In this document: positions 5,169 through 63,998 of the stretch, piece by piece
Position numbering within the stretch: the stretch's first letter is position 1
How the letters are laid out: each line of letters starts with the position of its first letter
NCBI RefSeq assembly: GCF_028688795.1
Contig: NZ_JAQTXM010000023.1
Span: forward strand, 1 to 64,000
Origin: Rhodoferax sp.
GTDB lineage: Bacteria > Pseudomonadota > Gammaproteobacteria > Burkholderiales > Burkholderiaceae_C
Length of the DNA stretch: 64,000 nucleotides
Direction of reading: 5' to 3'
The notes under the pieces: model-generated
Told to the model about the DNA's origin: nothing
Seen by the model: the letters and a program-made list of their open reading frames with translations, nothing else
Databases searched by the model: none
Translations under genes and position numbers: made by a program

Positions 5169-6464
5169 ATGTCCATGCAAATCTACCTGGTAGGCGGTGC
5201 GGTGCGTGACGCCCTGCTGGGCTTGCCCGTGAAAGACCGCGACTGGGTGGTGGTGGGCGCCAGCCCCGAGCAAATGATCGCTCAGGGCTTTGTGCCCGTG
5301 GGCAAAGACTTTCCGGTGTTTCTGCATCCCAAAACACATGAGGAATACGCGCTGGCCCGCACCGAGCGCAAAACCGCCCCCGGCTACCGCGGTTTTGCCA
5401 TTCATGCTGCGCCTGATGTGACACTGGAAGACGACCTGGCGCGGCGCGACATTACTATAAATTCAATAGCTATTAGAGCAGATTACATAAGGGTTAGAGG
5501 ACAATTTAACGAAAATATCTCAGAAACCCCTACACAATGGCTGAGTGCCGGTATCCTGGTTGACCCCTACAGTGGTGTGCAAGATCTGAAGGCCAAAGTG
5601 TTCCGTCACGTCAGCTCGGCGTTTCGTGAAGACCCTGTGCGCATCTTGCGCGTGGCACGCCTGGCCGCGCGTTTTCACGACTTCACCGTAGCGCCCGAAA
5701 CCCTGCAACTCATGCGTGAGATGGTGGACTGCGGCGAGGTCGACCACCTGGTAAGTGAGCGCGTCTGGCAAGAGCTTTCCCGTGGCCTGATGGAGGCCAA
5801 ACCTTCGCGCATGTTTGACGTGCTGCGCGACTGCGGTGCACTGGCTAGGTTGCTGCCCGAGGTAAACCGCCTGTGGGGCGTGGCACAACGCGCCGACTAC
5901 CATCCCGAGATCGATACCGGCGTGCACGTGATGATGGTGCTGGACATGAGCGCGCAGCTGCAGGCGCCCTTGACGGTGCGCTTTGCCTGCCTGGGCCATG
6001 ACTTGGGCAAGGGCAACACCCCGGCCGACATCCTGCCACGCCACTTGGGACACGAGGGGCGCAGCGCCCAACTCCTCAAAGGCTTGTGCGAGCGCCTGCG
6101 CGTGCCCACCGACTGCCGCGAACTGGCCGATGGGGTGGCGCGCGAGCACAGCAACATTCACCGCTCACTCAGTCTGGACGCCGCCGCCCTGATGCGCCTG
6201 CTGGAACGCTGCGATGCCATCCGCAAACCCGCACGTTTTGCCGACATGCTGCTGGCCTGCGAATGCGATGCACGCGGGCGCCTTGGCTACTCTGACGCGC
6301 CTTACCCGCAACGACCGCATTTGCTGAAGATGCTTGCCGCCGCACATAGCGTTGCTACTAATGAAATAGCTACTAGTGCAATTAATACCGGGGCTACAGG
6401 ATTAAAAATAGGCGAATTGATTCACAAGGCACGGGTCGCTGCGGTGGAGGTGGCCTTGGGCTGA
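5169..6464 (+). CDS. cca: CCA tRNA nucleotidyltransferase (multifunctional)
   Basis: MQIYLVGGAVRDALLGLPVKDRDWVVVGA; HD motif GHDLGKG; contains two copies of the dispersed 29-nt-core element. Confidence 0.95.
   Translation: MSMQIYLVGGAVRDALLGLPVKDRDWVVVGASPEQMIAQGFVPVGKDFPVFLHPKTHEEYALARTERKTAPGYRGFAIHAAPDVTLEDDLARRDITINSIAIRADYIRVRGQFNENISETPTQWLSAGILVDPYSGVQDLKAKVFRHVSSAFREDPVRILRVARLAARFHDFTVAPETLQLMREMVDCGEVDHLVSERVWQELSRGLMEAKPSRMFDVLRDCGALARLLPEVNRLWGVAQRADYHPEIDTGVHVMMVLDMSAQLQAPLTVRFACLGHDLGKGNTPADILPRHLGHEGRSAQLLKGLCERLRVPTDCRELADGVAREHSNIHRSLSLDAAALMRLLERCDAIRKPARFADMLLACECDARGRLGYSDAPYPQRPHLLKMLAAAHSVATNEIATSAINTGATGLKIGELIHKARVAAVEVALG
5461..5507 (+). repeat. 29-nt-core element copy A (core 5468-5496), in cca
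   Basis: AATAGCTATTAGAGCAGATTACATAAGGGTTAGAGGACAATTT. Confidence 0.85.
6361..6410 (+). repeat. 29-nt-core element copy B (core 6368-6396), in cca
   Basis: AAATAGCTACTAGTGCAATTAATACCGGGGCTACAGGATTAAAAAT. Confidence 0.78.
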
Positions 6465-11135: not shown

Positions 11136-12202
11136 CCCAACCGCAACCCACTCTGCGCGTCAAACCAGTTGTTGTGGTTACCGCTGACCGTCATCCCAAC
11201 GGTGTCACCCACGGTCACAACTGTGCTCGGCGGTGTGCGCACGGTAATCAGGCCAACAGCAGTTTTCACCACCACATAGGTGTCGGCACCGGTGGGCTCC
11301 ACCAGCGTGACCTGGCCGCGCCATGAGGCATCGTCGCTGAGGTGAATGTGTTCCGGGCGCTGGCCTAGCGTCACCTTGCCAGTGGCCGGGCATGGCAACG
11401 CCAAGCTGCCACCTTCAAAATTAAATTGGCTTGTAGCCCCCGTCCTACCTGCGCTACCAGCTATAAAATTCATAGTTGGCGAACCAATGAAACCGGCCAC
11501 ATAAGTGTTCGCGGGGCGACGGTAAATGTCGTCCGGTGTGCCAATTTGTTGCAGGATGCCGTCCTTCATCACCGCAATGCGGCTACCCAGCGTCATGGCC
11601 TCGATCTGGTCATGCGTCACATACACCGTGGTGATACCCGACAGCAGATGTAGACGCTTGATTTCGGCGCGCATTTCCACCCGCAATTTGGCGTCCAGGT
11701 TGCTTAAGGGCTCGTCAAACAAAAACAGTTTCGGGTCACGCGCCAGCGCACGGCCCATGGCCACGCGTTGACGCTGGCCACCCGAGAGCTGCGCCGGGCG
11801 GCGGTCCAGCAGGTGCTCAATCTGCAGCATGGCGGCCACTTCGTGGATGCGCTTGGTGCGCACGTCAAGCGGTACCTTGCGCATTTCCAGCGCAAAGCCA
11901 ATGTTGTCCGCCACGGTCATGGTGGGGTACAGCGCATAGCTCTGGAACACCATGGCAATGTCACGCTGGGCCGGGGCCACACCAATGACGTTTTTGCCGG
12001 CTATTTTGAGTTCGCCTTCAGTGGGCTCTTCCAAGCCGGCAATGATGTTGAGCAGTGTGGACTTGCCGCAGCCAGAAGGCCCGACCAAAATCAGAAACTC
12101 GCCGGGAGCAACCTCGATGTCGATTTTCTTGAGAACCTCGACGGCTTTGTCGCCCTTGCCAAAAACCTTGCGAATACCTGCGATGTGAAGTGAAGCTGCC
12201 AT
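11132..12202 (-). CDS. Sugar ABC transporter ATP-binding protein (UgpC/MalK-like)
   Basis: GPSGCGKSTLLNIIAGLE; LSGGQRQRVAMGRAL; TOBE-type C-terminus. Confidence 0.93.
   Translation of the reverse strand: MAASLHIAGIRKVFGKGDKAVEVLKKIDIEVAPGEFLILVGPSGCGKSTLLNIIAGLEEPTEGELKIAGKNVIGVAPAQRDIAMVFQSYALYPTMTVADNIGFALEMRKVPLDVRTKRIHEVAAMLQIEHLLDRRPAQLSGGQRQRVAMGRALARDPKLFLFDEPLSNLDAKLRVEMRAEIKRLHLLSGITTVYVTHDQIEAMTLGSRIAVMKDGILQQIGTPDDIYRRPANTYVAGFIGSPTMNFIAGSAGRTGATSQFNFEGGSLALPCPATGKVTLGQRPEHIHLSDDASWRGQVTLVEPTGADTYVVVKTAVGLITVRTPPSTVVTVGDTVGMTVSGNHNNWFDAQSGLRLG
11417..11475 (-). repeat. 29-nt-core element copy C (core 11434-11462), in ugpC-like gene
   Basis: Reverse complement: ATAGCTGGTAGCGCAGGTAGGACGGGGGCTACAAGCCAATTT. 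Confidence 0.87.
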
Positions 12203-15790: not shown

Positions 15791-16783
15791 TCAAGCCACC
15801 AACGCCAGCGCACCAAAATCCCCCACCCGCTCACCCAAGCCAGCGCTGACCAACTCGCAGCCGTCTGTGAGCGCCGGCAACTTGCCTTGCACGTAGGCGC
15901 GCAGGCGCGGCAGCAAGTGGTCACGGTGGTGCCAATAGACGCTGCCACCGATGCTGATGCGTTGTACATCCAGTGTGGCGATCAGGTCATAGAGCATGCG
16001 GCCCATGACCTCACATAATTCATCAATTAAGGCTGTAGCCCTTTTATCACCAGCGTAAGAAGCTACAAAAAGCGCAGCAGCATCCGCATACCCAAGTGCA
16101 GCAAAACGCCGGGCAATGGCGTTGCCGGCGACCAAGCCCTCCACATCACCGATGTTGCCGCAGCCGCACAGCGCGTCCGCGTTGCTGCTGACAAACAGGT
16201 GCCCGGCGTGTCCTGCGTTGCCATTTTTGCCGCGCAGCACATGACCGTCCACACACAGCCCGGTGCCGATGCCGGTGCTCCAAGTGACGTAAGCGCAATT
16301 GGCCATAGGTACCCCGTTGGTTTGCAAGGCACCCCAGCGGCGTTCGGCCTCCAGCGCGCCAATGCCGTCGTTTTCTACCCGCACGTGTTTGAAAGCGGCA
16401 CGCAGCGGCGCTTCAAGCAGCGCGGTTTGCCAGTCGTTGGGCAGGCCACGGGCCTTGCCGGCCAAACCACCACAAATGTTGGGGGCGGCCAGCTCAACCA
16501 ACCCTTGCTTGAGCACAAACGGCCCGCACGATGACACACCGACGCGCGCAATATCTTCGGTTTGCACACCCGCCATCGTGCAGCTTTGCGCAATCAGTCG
16601 GATGATCTGCTGTGCCAGCGCATCGTTATTCCCAATGGTGGCAGTAGGCTCGGTTACCTTGCCCCGGCTGCCTTGCGCGTCAACGATATTGACAGCCACC
16701 TTGGTGCCGCCAATGTCCACGCAGGCCACCGGTGCGGAGCCCGCAGGCAGCCGAAAACCGTCAATCAGAATGTTGGAAGTCAT
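15791..16783 (-). CDS. ROK-family sugar kinase
   Basis: CVDIGGTKVAVNIVD; VENDGIGALEAE; GHLFVSSNADALCGCGNIGDVEGLV zinc motif. Confidence 0.9.
   Translation of the reverse strand: MTSNILIDGFRLPAGSAPVACVDIGGTKVAVNIVDAQGSRGKVTEPTATIGNNDALAQQIIRLIAQSCTMAGVQTEDIARVGVSSCGPFVLKQGLVELAAPNICGGLAGKARGLPNDWQTALLEAPLRAAFKHVRVENDGIGALEAERRWGALQTNGVPMANCAYVTWSTGIGTGLCVDGHVLRGKNGNAGHAGHLFVSSNADALCGCGNIGDVEGLVAGNAIARRFAALGYADAAALFVASYAGDKRATALIDELCEVMGRMLYDLIATLDVQRISIGGSVYWHHRDHLLPRLRAYVQGKLPALTDGCELVSAGLGERVGDFGALALVA
16024..16070 (-). repeat. 29-nt-core element copy D (core 16036-16064), in ROK kinase
   Basis: Reverse complement: TGTAGCTTCTTACGCTGGTGATAAAAGGGCTACAGCCTTAATT. Confidence 0.8.
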
Positions 16784-20456: not shown

Positions 20457-21437
20457 ATGAATGCAACCTGGACAGACACCGATCGCGGTACCGACGTGTT
20501 GGACGCGCCCTCCGCCACAGAGGCTGGCACCGCCACCAAAAACCCCAAAGCCGAGCGCGACGCGGCGCAACGTGTCGCGTACGAGATCAACAAGCTCGAA
20601 AAACGCCTGTGCCGCCAAGTGGGCCAGGCCATCATCGACTTCAACATGATCGAGGAAGGTGACCGCGTGATGGTGTGCGTGAGCGGTGGCAAGGACAGCT
20701 ACGGGTTGCTCGACATTCTGCTGAAGCTACAAAAGCGCGCGCCGATCAACTTTGAGGTCATCGCCGTCAACCTGGACCAGAAACAACCCGGTTTTCCGGC
20801 GCACATCTTGCCCGAGTACCTGAGCAAACTGGGCATCGAATACCACATCGAAACCCAGGACACCTACAGCATTGTCAAAAAAGTGGTGGCTGAGGGCAAG
20901 ACCATGTGCAGCCTGTGCAGCCGGCTGCGCCGGGGTATTTTGTACCGCGTCGCCGATGAACTCAAAATCACCAAAATCGCGCTGGGTCACCACCGTGACG
21001 ACATGTTGGCCACCTTCTTTCTGAACATGTTTTTTGGCGGCAAGCTCAAGGGCATGCCACCCAAACTGGTGAGCGACGACGGCGGCCACATGGTGATTCG
21101 CCCGCTGGCCAACGTGGCTGAAAAAGACCTGATCCGCTGGGCCGCACACCGTGAATTCCCTATCATTCCGTGCAGCCTGTGCGGCAGCCAGGAAAACCTG
21201 CAGCGCCAGCTGATCGGCCAGATGCTGCGTGACTGGGAAAAACAATACCCCGGCCGCACCGAGACCATGTTCACCGCACTGCAAAACGTGGTGCCTTCAC
21301 ATTTGATGGATGTCAATCGCTACGACTTCAAAGGCCTGAAAATCACCGGCGTGGAAGATGCGGACGGCGACAAAGTGTTTGACCCCGAAGAATTCCCGCT
21401 GCCCCGCGTGGCGGGCCTGCCTTTGGTGCAAATTTAG
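20457..21437 (+). CDS. ttcA: tRNA 2-thiocytidine synthetase
   Basis: [18 protein letters not shown]-loop; [17 protein letters not shown]. Confidence 0.95.
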
Positions 21438-21447
21438 TTTTATATAC

Positions 21448-21502
21448 AAAATAGGCTTCTAGCCCTTATGAATAGAGCGATATCAGCTATTTATTTTATA
21501 GC
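21448..21502 (-). repeat. 29-nt-core element copy F (core 21460-21488), over lipoprotein start codon
   Basis: Reverse complement: AATAGCTGATATCGCTCTATTCATAAGGGCTAGAAGCCTATTTT. Confidence 0.88.
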
Positions 21503-22067
21503 ATTAAATATCTTGATGGCCTTGCTGTCAGGCTGCGCCAGCACACGACTTGTCGACACGCAGGTCAACAGCTTTGCGCCACAAGTGGTAGCCGCGGGTG
21601 CCAGCTACCAGTTTGAGCGCTTGCCGTCGCAATTGGTCGACCCCGTGGGCCAGGCCAAACTTGAAAAACTGGCCGAGCAAGCCCTGGCCAAGGTCGGCCT
21701 GAAGCGCCAAAACGGCGCCACTTTAAGCGTGCAGGTGAACGCCGTGCAGCGCCAGGAATACAGCTACAACCCAAGCGGGGTGAACATTGGCTGGGGCCTG
21801 GGCTGGGCCGTTGGCCATGGCTCGATTGGCATCAGCAACCGTGGCCCGCTGTTTCCGGGGCTGGGCGAACGACCCATCTACTGGCGCCAGGTCAGCCTGA
21901 TCATTCGCAATGCCGCAGGTAGCGTGGTGTTTGAGAGCCACGCCAGCCACGAGGGCGTCTGGGCTGACAGCGACGCCATTCTGGCCGCCATGCTGGATGC
22001 TGCGCTCAAAAGCTTCCCCACCCCGCCCAGCGGTGTGCGCCGCGTCAACATTGAAATCCCTCGCTAA
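21468..22067 (+). CDS. DUF4136-like lipoprotein
   Basis: Lipobox LLSGC; start codon and N-region fall inside a dispersed-repeat copy. Confidence 0.82.
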   Translation: MNRAISAIYFIALNILMALLSGCASTRLVDTQVNSFAPQVVAAGASYQFERLPSQLVDPVGQAKLEKLAEQALAKVGLKRQNGATLSVQVNAVQRQEYSYNPSGVNIGWGLGWAVGHGSIGISNRGPLFPGLGERPIYWRQVSLIIRNAAGSVVFESHASHEGVWADSDAILAAMLDAALKSFPTPPSGVRRVNIEIPR

Positions 22068-22083
22068 TCAGTTGCGGACATTC

Positions 22084-22722
22084 ATGCAAGCCACACGAAT
22101 CATTGCCATCCGCCACGGCGAAACCGCCTGGAACGTCGACACCCGGCTACAAGGCCACCTGGACATTGCGCTCAACCACAACGGCATCTGGCAAGCTGGG
22201 CAAGTCGCCCGCGCGTTGGCTGACGAGCCAATTGACGCCGTCTATGCCAGTGACCTGCTGCGTGCCTGGCAAACGGCCAATGCCATCGCCCATGCCACCG
22301 ACGCGCCGCTGCTGCCCAGCCAGGGCTTGCGCGAGCGTGGTTTTGGAAAGTTCGAAGGCAAGACCTACGCCGAAATTGAGGCGCAATGGCCAGAGGAATC
22401 TGTGATGTGGCGCAAACGGGTGCCTGACTGGGCCCCGCCGGGCGGTGAATCTCTGCTCACCTTGCGAGAACGCATCGCCCGCACCGTGAACAACTTGGCA
22501 CAACAACACATCGGTGGCCAAATTGTGCTGGTGGCGCACGGCGGCGTGATGGACATCCTTTACCGGCTGGCCACCGGCCAGGAGCTGCACGCGCCGCGCA
22601 GCTGGCAACTGGGCAACGCCGCTATCAACCGCCTGCTCTGGACACCCGAGGGCATGACCCTGGTCGGCTGGGCCGATACGCGCCACCTGGAAGGCGCCGT
22701 GCTGGATGAAGGCAGCGCTTAA
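22084..22722 (+). CDS. Histidine phosphatase family protein
   Basis: IIAIRHGETAWNVDTRLQGHLD..YASDLLRAWQTA. Confidence 0.93.
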   Translation: MQATRIIAIRHGETAWNVDTRLQGHLDIALNHNGIWQAGQVARALADEPIDAVYASDLLRAWQTANAIAHATDAPLLPSQGLRERGFGKFEGKTYAEIEAQWPEESVMWRKRVPDWAPPGGESLLTLRERIARTVNNLAQQHIGGQIVLVAHGGVMDILYRLATGQELHAPRSWQLGNAAINRLLWTPEGMTLVGWADTRHLEGAVLDEGSA

Positions 22723-47535: not shown

Positions 47536-49599
47536 ATGTACTTATTATTTGAAGAAACCGGCAAGTTCCTGGCCGGGCGCATCCTCTCTGAAGCCGACAC
47601 CTCTGCGCAGGTAGAACTTGACTCGGGCAAACGCGTCAAGGTCAAGGCCACCAATATGTTGCTCAAGTTCGAAAAGCCCACCCCGGCAGAACTCATGGCC
47701 AACGCGCAAGCCGTGGCCGCTGGCATGGAACTGGACATGGCCTGGGAATTTGCGCCCGAAGGCGACTTTGCCTTTGCCGAACTGGCGCGCGACTATTTCT
47801 CTGAGCACGCCACGCTAGAGCAACAAGCCGGCACCTTGATGGCGCTGTACGACGCGCCGCATTACTTTCGCCGGGCAGGCAAGGGGCGCTTCAAAAAAGC
47901 GTCTGCTGACATCCTGGCGCAGGCGCTGGCCGCGATTGAGAAAAAGAAGCAAATCGTCCTGCAAATTGAATCCTGGGTGAAAGACTTGAGCTCTGGGTCA
48001 TGCCCGCAGCCGATTCGAGACCAGCTTTACAAGATTCTCTTCAAGCCCGACAAAAATGCGCCTGAATACAAGGCGGTGGTGGAAGCCTCGCGCGCCACGC
48101 ACCTGGGCCCGCTGGACCTGCTGATCAAGGCCGGCGCGATTGACTCGCCCTACCAGTTTCACTGGAAACGCTTTCTGCTGGAAAACTTCCCCAAGGGCAC
48201 TGGCTTTCCGAAGCTGGACGCACCACTCATCATTGACGAGCTGCCGCTGTCGAGCGCCCGGGCGTTTTCCATTGACGATTCGGCCACCACCGAGATTGAC
48301 GATGCGCTCTCGGTGCAAGGCCTGGGCAGCGGCACCGTGTTAGTGGGCATTCACATCGCCGCGCCAGCATTGGCCATTGCCACTGGCAGCCCGGTTGATG
48401 CGGTGGGCCGCATGCGGCTGTCTACGGTTTACATGCCAGGCTACAAGCTCACCATGTTGCCCGATGACGTGGTGCAAAACTACACCTTACAAGAGGGGCG
48501 TGACTGCCCGGCGGTGTCTTTGTATGTGACGCTGGATGAAGCCACGCTGGAGATCAAGGCATCTGAGACCAAGCTGGAACGTGTGCACATTGGTGCCAAC
48601 TTGCGCCACGACCAGTTGGACGCCGTGGTCACGCTCGACTGGTTGCAAGACCCAATTTTTGAGCATGATATTGACCCCAAGCCCTTACAGCATAAGCGCG
48701 AGAAGCTCTCATTTTTATACAAATTGGCACAAGACCTGAAAGCCAAGCGCGAGGTGGTTCGCGGCAAGCCAGAGAACTTCAACCGGCCCGACTACAACTT
48801 CAAGCTAGTTGGCAACGAAGGCCGCGAGCCAGACGGCACCGAGCAGGTGCAGATCAGCGTGCGCCAGCGCGGCGCGCCGCTGGACTTGATCGTCTCTGAG
48901 GCCATGATTCTGGCCAACAGCACCTGGGGCAGTTGGATGGCTGAGCTGGGCGTGCCCGGCATCTACCGCAGCCAAGCATCCATGTTGCCCGGTGTCAAAG
49001 TGCGCATGGGCACCAAAGCGCTGCCGCACGCCGGCATTGGCGTCAAAAGTTACGCATGGAGCAGCTCACCGCTGCGCCGCTACGTGGATTTGGTCAACCA
49101 GTGGCAAATCATTGCCTGCGCGCGGCACGGCAAAACTGCCGCCCTGGCGGCACCTTTCAAGCCCAAAGATGCTGAGCTGTTTTCCGTGATCTCCAGCTTT
49201 GATGCCGCTTACTTTGCCTACAACGGCTACCAGAACGCCATTGAGCGCTTTTGGACGCTCAAGTATGTGCAACAAAACGCCATCACCGAGATTGAAGCCA
49301 GCCTGTTCAAGGACAACCTGGTGCGTGCCGACCACCTGCCCTTGGTGCTGCCGGTGATGGGCGCCCAGGGCTTGCCGCGCGGCGCCCGCGTGCGGGTCAA
49401 ATTAGGCGACATCGACCTGGTGTCGCTGGACATTCACGGCACCGTCATTGAACGCCTGGACGCCGAACCCGAAGCGCTGGACGCCGACGAAGACCTGGAC
49501 GACGACACCGTGGCTGGCCCCATCGCCATTGCCATGGACACCACGGAGGCTGAAGCTACCGACACCGTTGCGCCTCAAGAGGCAACCGCCGCACCGTGA
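47536..49599 (+). CDS. RNase II/VacB family (RNB-domain) ribonuclease
   Basis: FSIDDSATTEIDDALSV; SPLRRYVDLVNQWQ. Confidence 0.9.
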   Translation: MYLLFEETGKFLAGRILSEADTSAQVELDSGKRVKVKATNMLLKFEKPTPAELMANAQAVAAGMELDMAWEFAPEGDFAFAELARDYFSEHATLEQQAGTLMALYDAPHYFRRAGKGRFKKASADILAQALAAIEKKKQIVLQIESWVKDLSSGSCPQPIRDQLYKILFKPDKNAPEYKAVVEASRATHLGPLDLLIKAGAIDSPYQFHWKRFLLENFPKGTGFPKLDAPLIIDELPLSSARAFSIDDSATTEIDDALSVQGLGSGTVLVGIHIAAPALAIATGSPVDAVGRMRLSTVYMPGYKLTMLPDDVVQNYTLQEGRDCPAVSLYVTLDEATLEIKASETKLERVHIGANLRHDQLDAVVTLDWLQDPIFEHDIDPKPLQHKREKLSFLYKLAQDLKAKREVVRGKPENFNRPDYNFKLVGNEGREPDGTEQVQISVRQRGAPLDLIVSEAMILANSTWGSWMAELGVPGIYRSQASMLPGVKVRMGTKALPHAGIGVKSYAWSSSPLRRYVDLVNQWQIIACARHGKTAALAAPFKPKDAELFSVISSFDAAYFAYNGYQNAIERFWTLKYVQQNAITEIEASLFKDNLVRADHLPLVLPVMGAQGLPRGARVRVKLGDIDLVSLDIHGTVIERLDAEPEALDADEDLDDDTVAGPIAIAMDTTEAEATDTVAPQEATAAP
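48671..48718 (-). repeat. Diverged 29-nt-core element copy L (core 48679-48707), in RNase II-like gene
   Basis: Reverse complement: AGAGCTTCTCGCGCTTATGCTGTAAGGGCTTGGGGTCAATAT; spacing kept, GGCTT instead of GGCTA. Confidence 0.5.
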
Positions 49600-50464: not shown

Positions 50465-51298
50465 ATGACACTTGACCACTACTGCGTGATGGGCAACCCC
50501 ATCAGCCACAGCCGCTCACCCTGGATTCACACGCGCTTTGCCGAACTCACTGGCCAGACCATGCTGTACGACAAGCGCGAAATCCCGCTGGACCACTTTG
50601 ACCGCAGCATTCACGCCTTCATTGCCGAGGGCGGACGCGGTTGCAACATCACCGTGCCCTTCAAGTTTGAAGCCGCCGCGATGGCCACCCACACCAGCGA
50701 GCGCGGCTTGCTGGCACAAGCCTGCAATGTGCTGACCTTCAAAGACGGCCAGATTCTTGGCGACAACACCGACGGCATTGGCCTGGTTGATGACATCGAA
50801 CGCAACGCAGGCTTGCCCCTGAAGGGCCTGCGCCTGCTGCTGATTGGCGCCGGTGGTGCCGCAGCGGGTGTGCTCGGGCCGCTGCTGAACGCGCAGCCGG
50901 CCCACATCAGCGTGGCCAACCGCACGCTGAGCAAAGCTACCGAACTGGTAGCGCGCCACCATGCTTTGGCAATGCTACAAAATACAGAGCTGCTTGCGCA
51001 TGATTTACAAGGGCTAGAGGGTGATTTTGATGTCATTATCAATGGCACAGCCAGCAGCCTCGGTGGCCACGGCGTGCCCGTGAGTGAGCACGTTTTGAAG
51101 CCTGGCGCATTGGCCTACGACATGATGTATGGCCCCGGCGCACAAGGATTCATGGACTGGGCAAGTTCCCACGGTGCCGTGCCGCGCGATGGCCTGGGTA
51201 TGCTGGTGGAGCAAGCCGCTGAAGCCTTTTTGATCTGGCGTGGCGTGCGGCCACCGTCTGGCCAGGTGCTGGCTGAACTGCGCAAACTCTTGGGCTAA
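50465..51298 (+). CDS. aroE: Shikimate dehydrogenase
   Basis: YCVMGNPISHSRSPWIHTRFAELTGQ; GGRGCNITVPFK; IGAGGAAAGVLGPLL. Confidence 0.95.
   Translation: MTLDHYCVMGNPISHSRSPWIHTRFAELTGQTMLYDKREIPLDHFDRSIHAFIAEGGRGCNITVPFKFEAAAMATHTSERGLLAQACNVLTFKDGQILGDNTDGIGLVDDIERNAGLPLKGLRLLLIGAGGAAAGVLGPLLNAQPAHISVANRTLSKATELVARHHALAMLQNTELLAHDLQGLEGDFDVIINGTASSLGGHGVPVSEHVLKPGALAYDMMYGPGAQGFMDWASSHGAVPRDGLGMLVEQAAEAFLIWRGVRPPSGQVLAELRKLLG
50978..51028 (+). repeat. 29-nt-core element copy H (core 50988-51016), in aroE
   Basis: CAGAGCTGCTTGCGCATGATTTACAAGGGCTAGAGGGTGATTTT. Confidence 0.83.
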
Positions 51299-58644: not shown

Positions 58645-58785
58645 GGTGTGCTCCTTGGGGTGTGATACGTGAGAAATAATTTAAAAAAATGGCGGTATTG
58701 GTTTTGTGTGGGTTTGGCGGTGGGTCAACACATCGCCATCGCTCTCCGGGGCCTGCGCGGCCCGTTATAAGTCGTTTGGTCATGG

Positions 58786-60828: not shown

Positions 60829-61775
60829 ACAGCGGCGTAGTCCCGGGTGGCAAGCTTAAGCACCTGCAGGCAAAGCTCTGGGTAGCTGATACCCGCCGCC
60901 CTGGCCGACATGGGCACCAGCGAATGGCTGGTCATGCCGGGGCTGGTGTTGATTTCAAGCAGGTAGGGCTGACGGGTGGTGGCGTCAATCATCACGTCGG
61001 CGCGTGCCCAGCCGCGGCAGCCCAGGCTTTTGAAGGCTTGCAGCACCAGTTGCTGGATGTGGGCTTCTTCGCCTTCGGGCAGACCACAGGGCACCAGGTA
61101 CTCGGTGGTATCGGTGAAGTATTTGTTCTGGTAGTCGTAATTGCCGTCAGGTGCCTTGATGCGAATCACTGGCAAGGCCCGTGCGTCGGCACCACTGCCG
61201 AGCACCGGCACGGTGACTTCGTCGCCCGTAATGAACTGCTCACACAGCACCTCGTCATGTGTGCCGGCAGCCACGGCAAACGCGGCGTCACATTGGTCCA
61301 GCGCGGTGACCTTGGTCAGCCCGATGGTGGAGCCTTCGCGCGCAGGCTTGACGATCATCGGGCTGCCCAACGCGGCAAAAGCCGCGCGTGTGGCGGCTGC
61401 GCTGTCAACCTTTTGCCAGGCCGGTGTGGGTAGGCCATCTGCCAGCCACAAGCGCTTGGTCATGAATTTGTCAATGGCAATGCTGGAGGCCATCACGCCC
61501 GGGCCGGTGTAGGGAATGCCCATCAGTTCCAGCGCACCCTGCACTGTGCCGTCTTCGCCAAAACGACCATGCAGGGCAATGAAACAACGGGTGAAGCCCT
61601 CGCGTTTGAGTTCACCCAAATCACGCTCGGCCGGGTCAAAGGCGTGTGCGTTCACGCCCAAGCTTTGCAGCGCCTGCAGCACACCGTGGCCCGACATCAG
61701 CGACACCTCGCGCTCGGCAGAGGCGCCGCCCATGAGCACCGCCACTTTTTCAGAATTTATATCAAATTGACCCAT
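60825..61775 (-). CDS. ddl: D-alanine--D-alanine ligase
   Basis: [64 protein letters not shown]. Confidence 0.96.
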
Positions 61776-61812
61776 AGCCCTTGTCCTTATTGCGTAAGTA
61801 GCTCTGAATTTG
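61757..61812 (-). repeat. 29-nt-core element copy J (core 61775-61803), murC-ddl junction
   Basis: Reverse complement: TCAGAGCTACTTACGCAATAAGGACAAGGGCTATGGGTCAATTTGATA. Confidence 0.8.
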
Positions 61813-63223
61813 GATGCATTTCCAGCATCTCTTCAACCTTGGTGCTGACCGCGCCAATGGAGCCTGCGCCCATGCACAACACCACATCACCGTCGCGGGC
61901 GGTGTCCACAATGGCTTGCGGCAGGTCGGCGATGTTGTCGACAAACACCGGCTCAACGCGCCCGGCCACGCGCAACGCACGCGCCAGGCTTCGACCATCG
62001 GCGGCGACGATCGGGGCTTCGCCAGCGGCATAGACCTCGGTCAGCAACACGGCATCAAACTGGCCGATGACCTTCACAAAATCCTCAAAACAGTCGCGCG
62101 TGCGGCTGTAGCGGTGCGGTTGAAACGCCAGCATCAAGCGCCTGCCTGGGAACGCACCACGTGCAGCGTCCAGCGTGGCCGCCATCTCTACGGGGTGGTG
62201 ACCGTAGTCTTCCACCAAAGTGAAACTACCCCCGCCATTGGCGCTGCTGACCGGTTGCTCGCCATGGCTCTGAAAGCGTCGGCCAACGCCCTTGAAACTG
62301 GCTAAGGCACGCAGCACGGCGGCATCGTCGATGCTCAGTTCGACCGCCAACGCAATGGCAGACAGCGCATTGAGCACGTTGTGGCGGCCTGGCAAATTCA
62401 GCACCACAGCCAGATCAGGCAGCACCACGCCGTTGCGCCGCTGCACCGTGAAGTGCATCTGACCACCGACGGCGTGCACATCCACCGCGCGCACTTCAGC
62501 GCCTTCTTCAAAGCCGTAGCTGGTGACCGGGCAAGTGACCTGCGACACGATCGAGCGCACAGCGGCATCGTCGGTGCACAAAATGGCCACGCCATAAAAC
62601 GGCATGCGGTGCAAAAAGTCGACAAAGGCTTTTTTCAGGTTCTCAAAGCTATGACCATAGGTTTCCATATGGTCAGCGTCGATGTTGGTCACCACCGCCA
62701 TGATCGGCAGCAGGTTCAAAAACGAGGCGTCTGACTCATCGGCTTCCACCACAATGTGCTCGCCCTTGCCCAGCCGCGCATTGGCACCGGCACTGTTCAG
62801 GCGGCCACCAATCACAAAGGTCGGGTCCAGCCCGGCTTCAGCCAGCACGCTGGCCACCAGGCTGGTGGTGGTGGTTTTGCCGTGCGTGCCAGCTATGGCA
62901 ATGCCGGTTTTCAGGCGCATCAGTTCGGCCAGCATGAGGGCGCGCGGCACCACGGGAATGTGGGCGGCGCGGGCAGCGATCACCTCGGGGTTATCAGCTT
63001 GCACGGCAGTGGACGTGACCACGGCGTCTGCGCCAGCGATGTTGCTGGTGGCGTGGCCGATTTGCGTCTGAATGCCCAGGGTTTTGAGGCGCTGCAAGGT
63101 GGCGCTGTCAGACTGGTCCGAGCCAGAGATGACGTAGCCCAGGTTGAACAGCACCTCGGCAATGCCAGACATGCCGACGCCGCCGATGCCGACGAAGTGG
63201 ATGTGTTTGATGGCGTGTTTCAT
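61787..63223 (-). CDS. murC: UDP-N-acetylmuramate--L-alanine ligase
   Basis: [39 protein letters not shown]. Confidence 0.97.
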
Positions 63224-63263: not shown

Positions 63264-63998
63264 TCATTTGCACACCGCCTCGCACGCTGCCACGATATTT
63301 TGGGTGGCTTCAAGTTTTTGCATGTTTTTAGCCTCTAGCCCTTTATTAACAAGCGTAGCACGCTCCATATTCAATAGCATATCAGCCAGCCAGGCAGGCG
63401 TCAGCTGCTTTTGCTGCACCAGCCAAGCCGCCCCAGCATCTGCCAGAAACCGTGCATTGGTGGTCTGGTGGTCATCTACGGCAAACGGGAAAGGCACAAA
63501 CAGCGCTGCCGCCCCCACTGCGGCAATCTCGGTGACAGTGCTAGCACCCGCGCGGCAGATCACCAAGTCAGCATCGGCAAAAGCCTGCGCGGTGTCGTCA
63601 ATGAAGGGGGTCAACGTGGCATGCACACCGGCTGCGGCGTAGTTGGCGCGCAGGGCGTCAATTTGTTTGGCGCCACTTTGGTGAACGACCTCGGGGCGTT
63701 TTTCAGCAGGCATCAGCGCCAGCGCTTGCGGCACGATGTCGTTCAGGGCTTTGGCGCCCAAGCTACCACCCACCACCAGCAATTTCAATGGCCCGCTGCG
63801 GCCAGCAAAACGCTGCGCTGGGTCGGGCTGGTTCAAAAATGCTGTGCGCAAGGGGTTGCCAACCCACTTGGCACCTTTGATCACATTAGGGAAGGCGGTG
63901 AACACCCGGTCTGCCACACCGGCCAACACCTTATTTGCCAGACCTGCCACCGAGTTTTGCTCATGCAAGATGAGCGGCTTGCCCAGCAACACACTCAT
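63264..63998 (-). CDS. murG: MurG N-acetylglucosaminyltransferase (5' end outside window)
   Basis: HEQNSVAGLANKVLA; GGSLGAKALNDIVPQAL; ICRAGASTVTEIAAVG. Confidence 0.93.
   Translation of the reverse strand: MSVLLGKPLILHEQNSVAGLANKVLAGVADRVFTAFPNVIKGAKWVGNPLRTAFLNQPDPAQRFAGRSGPLKLLVVGGSLGAKALNDIVPQALALMPAEKRPEVVHQSGAKQIDALRANYAAAGVHATLTPFIDDTAQAFADADLVICRAGASTVTEIAAVGAAALFVPFPFAVDDHQTTNARFLADAGAAWLVQQKQLTPAWLADMLLNMERATLVNKGLEAKNMQKLEATQNIVAACEAVCK
63321..63380 (-). repeat. 29-nt-core element copy K (core 63336-63364), in murG
   Basis: Reverse complement: GGAGCGTGCTACGCTTGTTAATAAAGGGCTAGAGGCTAAAAA. Confidence 0.8.

Follow-up and report, generated by a model that had tools for sequence, protein, structure and literature searches.

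The window analysed here, a 64,000-nt stretch of a Rhodoferax sp. contig, contains on its plus strand the ttcA gene for tRNA 2-thiocytidine(32) synthetase (20457..21437; NCBIfam equivalog NF007972, E 9.4e-144), followed by a gene for a DUF4136-like lipoprotein of 199 aa (21468..22067; Pfam PF13590, E 1.4e-7; at 32.5 bits the match lies just below the Pfam gathering cut-off of 32.8). A histidine phosphatase gene (22084..22722; PF00300, E 4e-62), recognised also by synteny as the conserved downstream neighbour in most orthologous loci, comes next. The lipoprotein ORF is a real gene, as judged by its length, its orthologues, and its conserved synteny. At the junction with ttcA lies element F, which is a single copy of an AT-rich interspersed repeat of ~70 bp (21438..21507, plus strand; 27% GC) and is delimited by a covariance model and copy alignment. 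The model (R1), for which 39 further copies in this genome served as the training set and the window copy was left out, scores it at 82.1 bits (E 2.2e-16). The element reported in a first-pass annotation of this DNA is thus real, with its boundaries moved from 21448-21520 to 21438-21507, and its left end adjoins the ttcA stop codon TAG (21435-21437).

The predicted start codon of the lipoprotein gene (ATG, 21468..21470) is the first ATG, GTG or TTG of the ORF and falls at position 31 of the element, where 24 of the 121 other genome copies also have an ATG. The only other standard in-frame starts upstream of the lipobox are TTG 21513 and ATG 21516, which would leave MMALLSGC and MALLSGC, respectively; the earlier statements that the start lies inside the element and that initiation at 21516 would spare just MALLSGC both hold. 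Because no good Shine-Dalgarno sequence precedes ATG 21468, this start codon stays a prediction; some relatives with upstream starts do have one. Read from 21468, the element supplies residues 1-13 (MNRAISAIYFIAL, 21468..21506), one codon more than the ~12 first proposed for an element-encoded N-terminus that is otherwise borne out. By inspection, the N-terminus MNRAISAIYFIALNILMALLSGC has a basic n-region, a hydrophobic stretch, and a lipobox ending in Cys, and this pattern is kept in the orthologues. Direct reading of the sequence, together with the alignment of orthologues at the lipobox, predicts a lipoprotein signal peptide of residues 1-22 (21468..21533) ahead of Cys23 (lipobox LSGC), and the protein would be exported and lipidated.

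Element F belongs to an abundant family. Its own genome (4.99 Mb) holds at least 150 copies by model search, the weakest among the matches listed having an E value of 3.7e-9, and at least 40 copies by BLAST. The repeat was found in 30 of 101 genera of the host family, each sampled by one genome, and 55 other families of the host class gave no match. The consensus is approximately nTTTnTATAAnAAATAGGCCTCTAGCCCTTATnAATAAAGCGCAAGCAGCTATTTATTAAATAGCA; the element is weakly similar to its own reverse complement, and the consensus ends, nTTTnTATAA and ATAGCAnnTn, do not form inverted repeats, such that MITE terminal inverted repeats are absent. A short 3' hairpin typical of the element, GCTAT...ATAGC (21486..21502, from pairing across copies), has outer 5 pairs that form in 88-97% of the 121 other copies. 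Covariation of the named hairpins did not exceed that of shuffled controls, and an RNAalifold consensus of the copies had an energy near zero and almost no structure beyond short hairpins. Positions 21000-22000 had no Rfam match at E values up to 1, and plasmid and phage collections had no element match at E 1e-5. We found no description of the element in the openly accessible literature searched, and a paper on GTAG/CGTC REP sequences names none of the genera that carry it. The copies are common in non-coding DNA, and several frames on both strands are in use; their dispersal suggests a mobile element, and no clean recent empty site was found.

To place the window copy in its evolutionary context, we compared orthologous loci. 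Orthologues of the lipoprotein occur in 26 of 61 sampled congeners, the named orthologous records come from Rhodoferax and other Comamonadaceae, and the gene order ttcA, lipoprotein, phosphatase is kept in most of these loci. In a tree built from concatenated TtcA, lipoprotein, and phosphatase proteins, the main Rhodoferax clade comprises 28 rows, 17 of which carry the element at the same site and in the same frame, with matches up to E 1e-15. Cultured carriers include Rhodoferax antarcticus (locus L083) and Rhodoferax sp. BLA1 (L078). Carriers occupy all basal branches of this clade, and the non-carriers consist of one nested clade of 10 rows, next to the window genome, and one single row. 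N-termini of the nested clade, such as MPLVSVKIARSALVLLVFLV, align with the element frame from an upstream ATG, and the carriers MPLALINIARIAIFLAAIGL and MHLALIKYAQAATIFIAFAL also read the element frame from an upstream ATG. We ranked the element register among 21 in-frame offsets using a position matrix. It came first for 8 of the 10 nested-clade rows and for 6 of the 8 that form a second Rhodoferax clade, compared with 3 of 27 rows among the outgroups; part of the similarity among the N-termini may come from signal-peptide composition. An initial reading, in which the nested clade simply had no element, was dropped given that this test shows decayed traces in place. One locus (L081) is intermediate, keeping MYKALSALLLTVFLL with no model match to the repeat.

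Since the register test supports decayed forms in the non-carriers, the peptide derived from the element is apparently an ancestral feature that has since eroded at its original site. The comparison also supports an insertion that was not recent and that was ancestral to the Rhodoferax clade. The proposal that the repeat supplied the start, the n-region, and half of the hydrophobic region is therefore supported with a different timing and manner, as orthologues carry the element in frame and the event is not particular to the window genome. Orthologues sharing the N-terminus in the absence of the repeat had been named as a possible objection, and when these were sought most showed the repeat or a decayed form of it in the same register. 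The signal peptides of more distant orthologues are unrelated, making it more likely that an older signal peptide was replaced than that one was newly created. Seven Polaromonas orthologues have weaker element matches (E 3e-5 to 0.05) in a different register (14 versus 5), and these may represent an independent insertion.

Some features of the window copy would be consistent with a more complicated history. For an old insertion its preservation is unusually good, with 82 bits retained while the sister clade decayed, and in it, as in one other locus (L009 and L011, respectively), the distance from element to lipobox is 15 nt longer than in the remaining Rhodoferax rows (20 versus 5), even though the tree separates the two; joining them gives an AU p value of 0.06. 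Two element subfamilies, AATAAAGCG and AAATATGCG, are moreover both present at the locus. The extra 15 nt and the good preservation could reflect a second insertion or gene conversion, and on a broader version of this explanation the gap between ttcA and the lipobox would be a hot spot at which the repeat landed or was refreshed several times, leaving the shared N-termini partly convergent. We consider this broader version rather unlikely, as all carriers have the element in the same reading frame, the non-carriers have decayed in the same register, and the same pattern of ancestral presence followed by decay is seen at DprA, RlmD, and MoeA.

We then asked whether the element codons bear signs of use as coding sequence. 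All 17 orthologues have an open frame between the ATG position and the end of the element, compared with 40 of 121 other genome copies. Codon position 2 varies less than in those other copies (ratio 0.75), whereas positions 1 and 3 vary more (1.20 and 1.23), a modest effect that was matched in 72 of 5000 resamples (about 0.014) with phylogeny ignored. Hairpin pair 4 is formed in 35% of orthologues at the lipoprotein locus and in 89% of other copies, a loss that would be expected if the peptide rather than the hairpin were under selection. As phylogeny is not in the model, these tests are supporting rather than decisive, and selection on the peptide is the probable cause of retention. An alternative is that the element acts only as 5' leader or regulatory DNA. 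In that case translation would begin elsewhere, from a distant or non-standard site, and the likeness between the peptides would be incidental; the missing Shine-Dalgarno sequence at 21468, the conserved short hairpin, and the many copies in non-coding DNA would fit such a role. Without the element codons, however, just MMALLSGC remains, the open frame is universal among these 17 orthologues, relatives that have lost the hairpin retain the peptide, and FlgH, a known lipoprotein family, takes its signal peptide from this element frame. We therefore regard a leader-only function as highly improbable.

The use of the repeat as coding sequence extends to other proteins. In a survey of 122 copies in the same genome, with gene calls based on codon scores and Pfam, about 20 copies add codons to recognisable genes by codon-usage scoring. 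The signal peptide of FlgH (Pfam E 2.5e-54) is element-derived, 9 of the 30 FlgH loci of the genus have the element in this register, and an ABC auxiliary lipoprotein, MNNIATCAYLTRVRGLFLVYLLALTGC (G000:C29:123784-123853, locus L195), takes its signal peptide from the opposite strand of the element. The starts or N-termini of PanC, HisH, and a pterin dehydratase also lie in the element, and in-frame internal copies occur in DprA, RlmD, CobU, and MoeA. The copy in MoeA sits in an insert of ~51 residues that is missing from E. coli MoeA. Those in DprA, RlmD, and MoeA are common to most Rhodoferax examined and are eroded or deleted in some. In the nested Rhodoferax clade, MoeA at two loci (L291 and L292) has no element insert, apparently by deletion. 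Elsewhere in the genome, one ORF (locus L226) contains two copies 105 nt apart in the same frame (G000:C95:58597-58666 and 58702-58771).

Further copies lie within the window itself. One of 50 bits (5449-5518, minus strand) is read in frame from the opposite strand in the tRNA nucleotidyltransferase (Cca) gene at 5169-6464, and another (50969-51038, minus strand) is in frame within the shikimate dehydrogenase (AroE) gene at 50465-51298. When Cca is aligned to a solved relative, 1vfg, two gaps (11 and 7 residues) fall at the copy. Weaker plus-strand copies with intact frames are found in an ABC transporter ATPase (11412-11481), a ROK kinase (16014-16083), and an RNB-domain protein (48657-48726). 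A plus-strand copy at 61753-61822, between the end of a minus-strand gene and the N-terminus of a D-alanine ligase-like protein, may supply the start codon of the latter, and one at 63314-63383 (plus strand) covers C-terminal codons of a MurG-like gene on the minus strand (63264-63998).

Several known repeat families offer points of comparison. Rickettsia palindromic elements (RPE; Ogata et al.) are present in many interspersed copies, both in non-coding DNA and in frame within unrelated conserved genes, where they are read as an extra peptide that leaves the host protein undestroyed (PMC2229807, PMC10969869). The element F family is likewise interspersed and in frame inside several conserved genes (DprA, RlmD, MoeA, CobU, and others), and by analogy it seems to work as RPE do, the likeness being one of use. 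Unlike RPE, which are ~150 bp with a long hairpin, element F is ~70 bp with short hairpins only, occurs in free-living Betaproteobacteria, and is used for starts and signal peptides besides internal inserts. For a signal peptide built from a repeat, the closest precedent lies with the enterobacterial repeat units RU-1 (ERIC) and RU-2: RU-2 (the Yersinia palindromic sequence) makes up part of the signal peptide predicted for Yersinia YPO1552, whereas other genera have unrelated ones (Delihas 2007, PMC2759123). That case concerns a single putative protein in very close species, whereas in the present genome the element is found in three lipoproteins, with retention across the genus and decay at the original site. 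We also considered BRE, a short interspersed repeat of Betaproteobacteria including Comamonadaceae that sometimes overlaps ORF ends or lies inside coding sequence; it measures ~90 bp, has a GC content of about 69%, and is often tandem (PMC3110155). Identity with BRE was set aside given that element F is ~70 bp and AT-rich, with a GC fraction of 0.27 in the window copy.

Taken together, these results lead us to propose that the repeat inserted in a Rhodoferax ancestor, was read as a start and signal peptide, and was retained as coding sequence, and we place the probability of this account as a whole at roughly 0.8. A short interspersed repeat would have landed between ttcA and the DUF4136 lipoprotein gene in that ancestor. 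The forward frame of the element, approximately xxxNRPLAL(M/I)NKAxAAIxxIA, would have brought a basic n-region and, after it, a hydrophobic stretch, and because these were in frame with the old lipobox they would have provided a working start and signal peptide. The element codons would then have been retained through selection on the peptide, with lineages losing the DNA identity and hairpin of the repeat while keeping its register and open frame, and with the start codon shifting upstream within the element in some of them. The reverse direction, in which the repeat family was born from a duplicated signal-peptide region like this one, would suit the signal-peptide-like element frame and the old age of the locus copy, but it is scarcely credible given that copies are used in several frames on both strands, members of the family occur in 30 genera, stops interrupt the frame in two thirds of the other copies, and outgroup genera with unrelated signal peptides have copies elsewhere in the locus.

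The best-known small protein-coding repeats are those of Rickettsia and Wolbachia, whose intracellular genomes make relaxed selection a ready explanation. Element F is abundant in a genus that has a ~5 Mb genome and includes free-living species, and it occurs in core genes. On balance we lean towards the view that this Comamonadaceae-wide repeat is a standing supply of ready-made coding sequence, in which the forward frame provides a start and signal peptide, both strands are readable, and copies in core genes are kept over genus-level time while their DNA decays. The series from fresh to decayed copies would make the origin of new signal peptides and protein inserts directly testable, and annotated N-termini in these genomes may be repeat-derived. 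If this view is correct, the N-termini and loops of conserved proteins would turn over through a repeat found throughout the Comamonadaceae.
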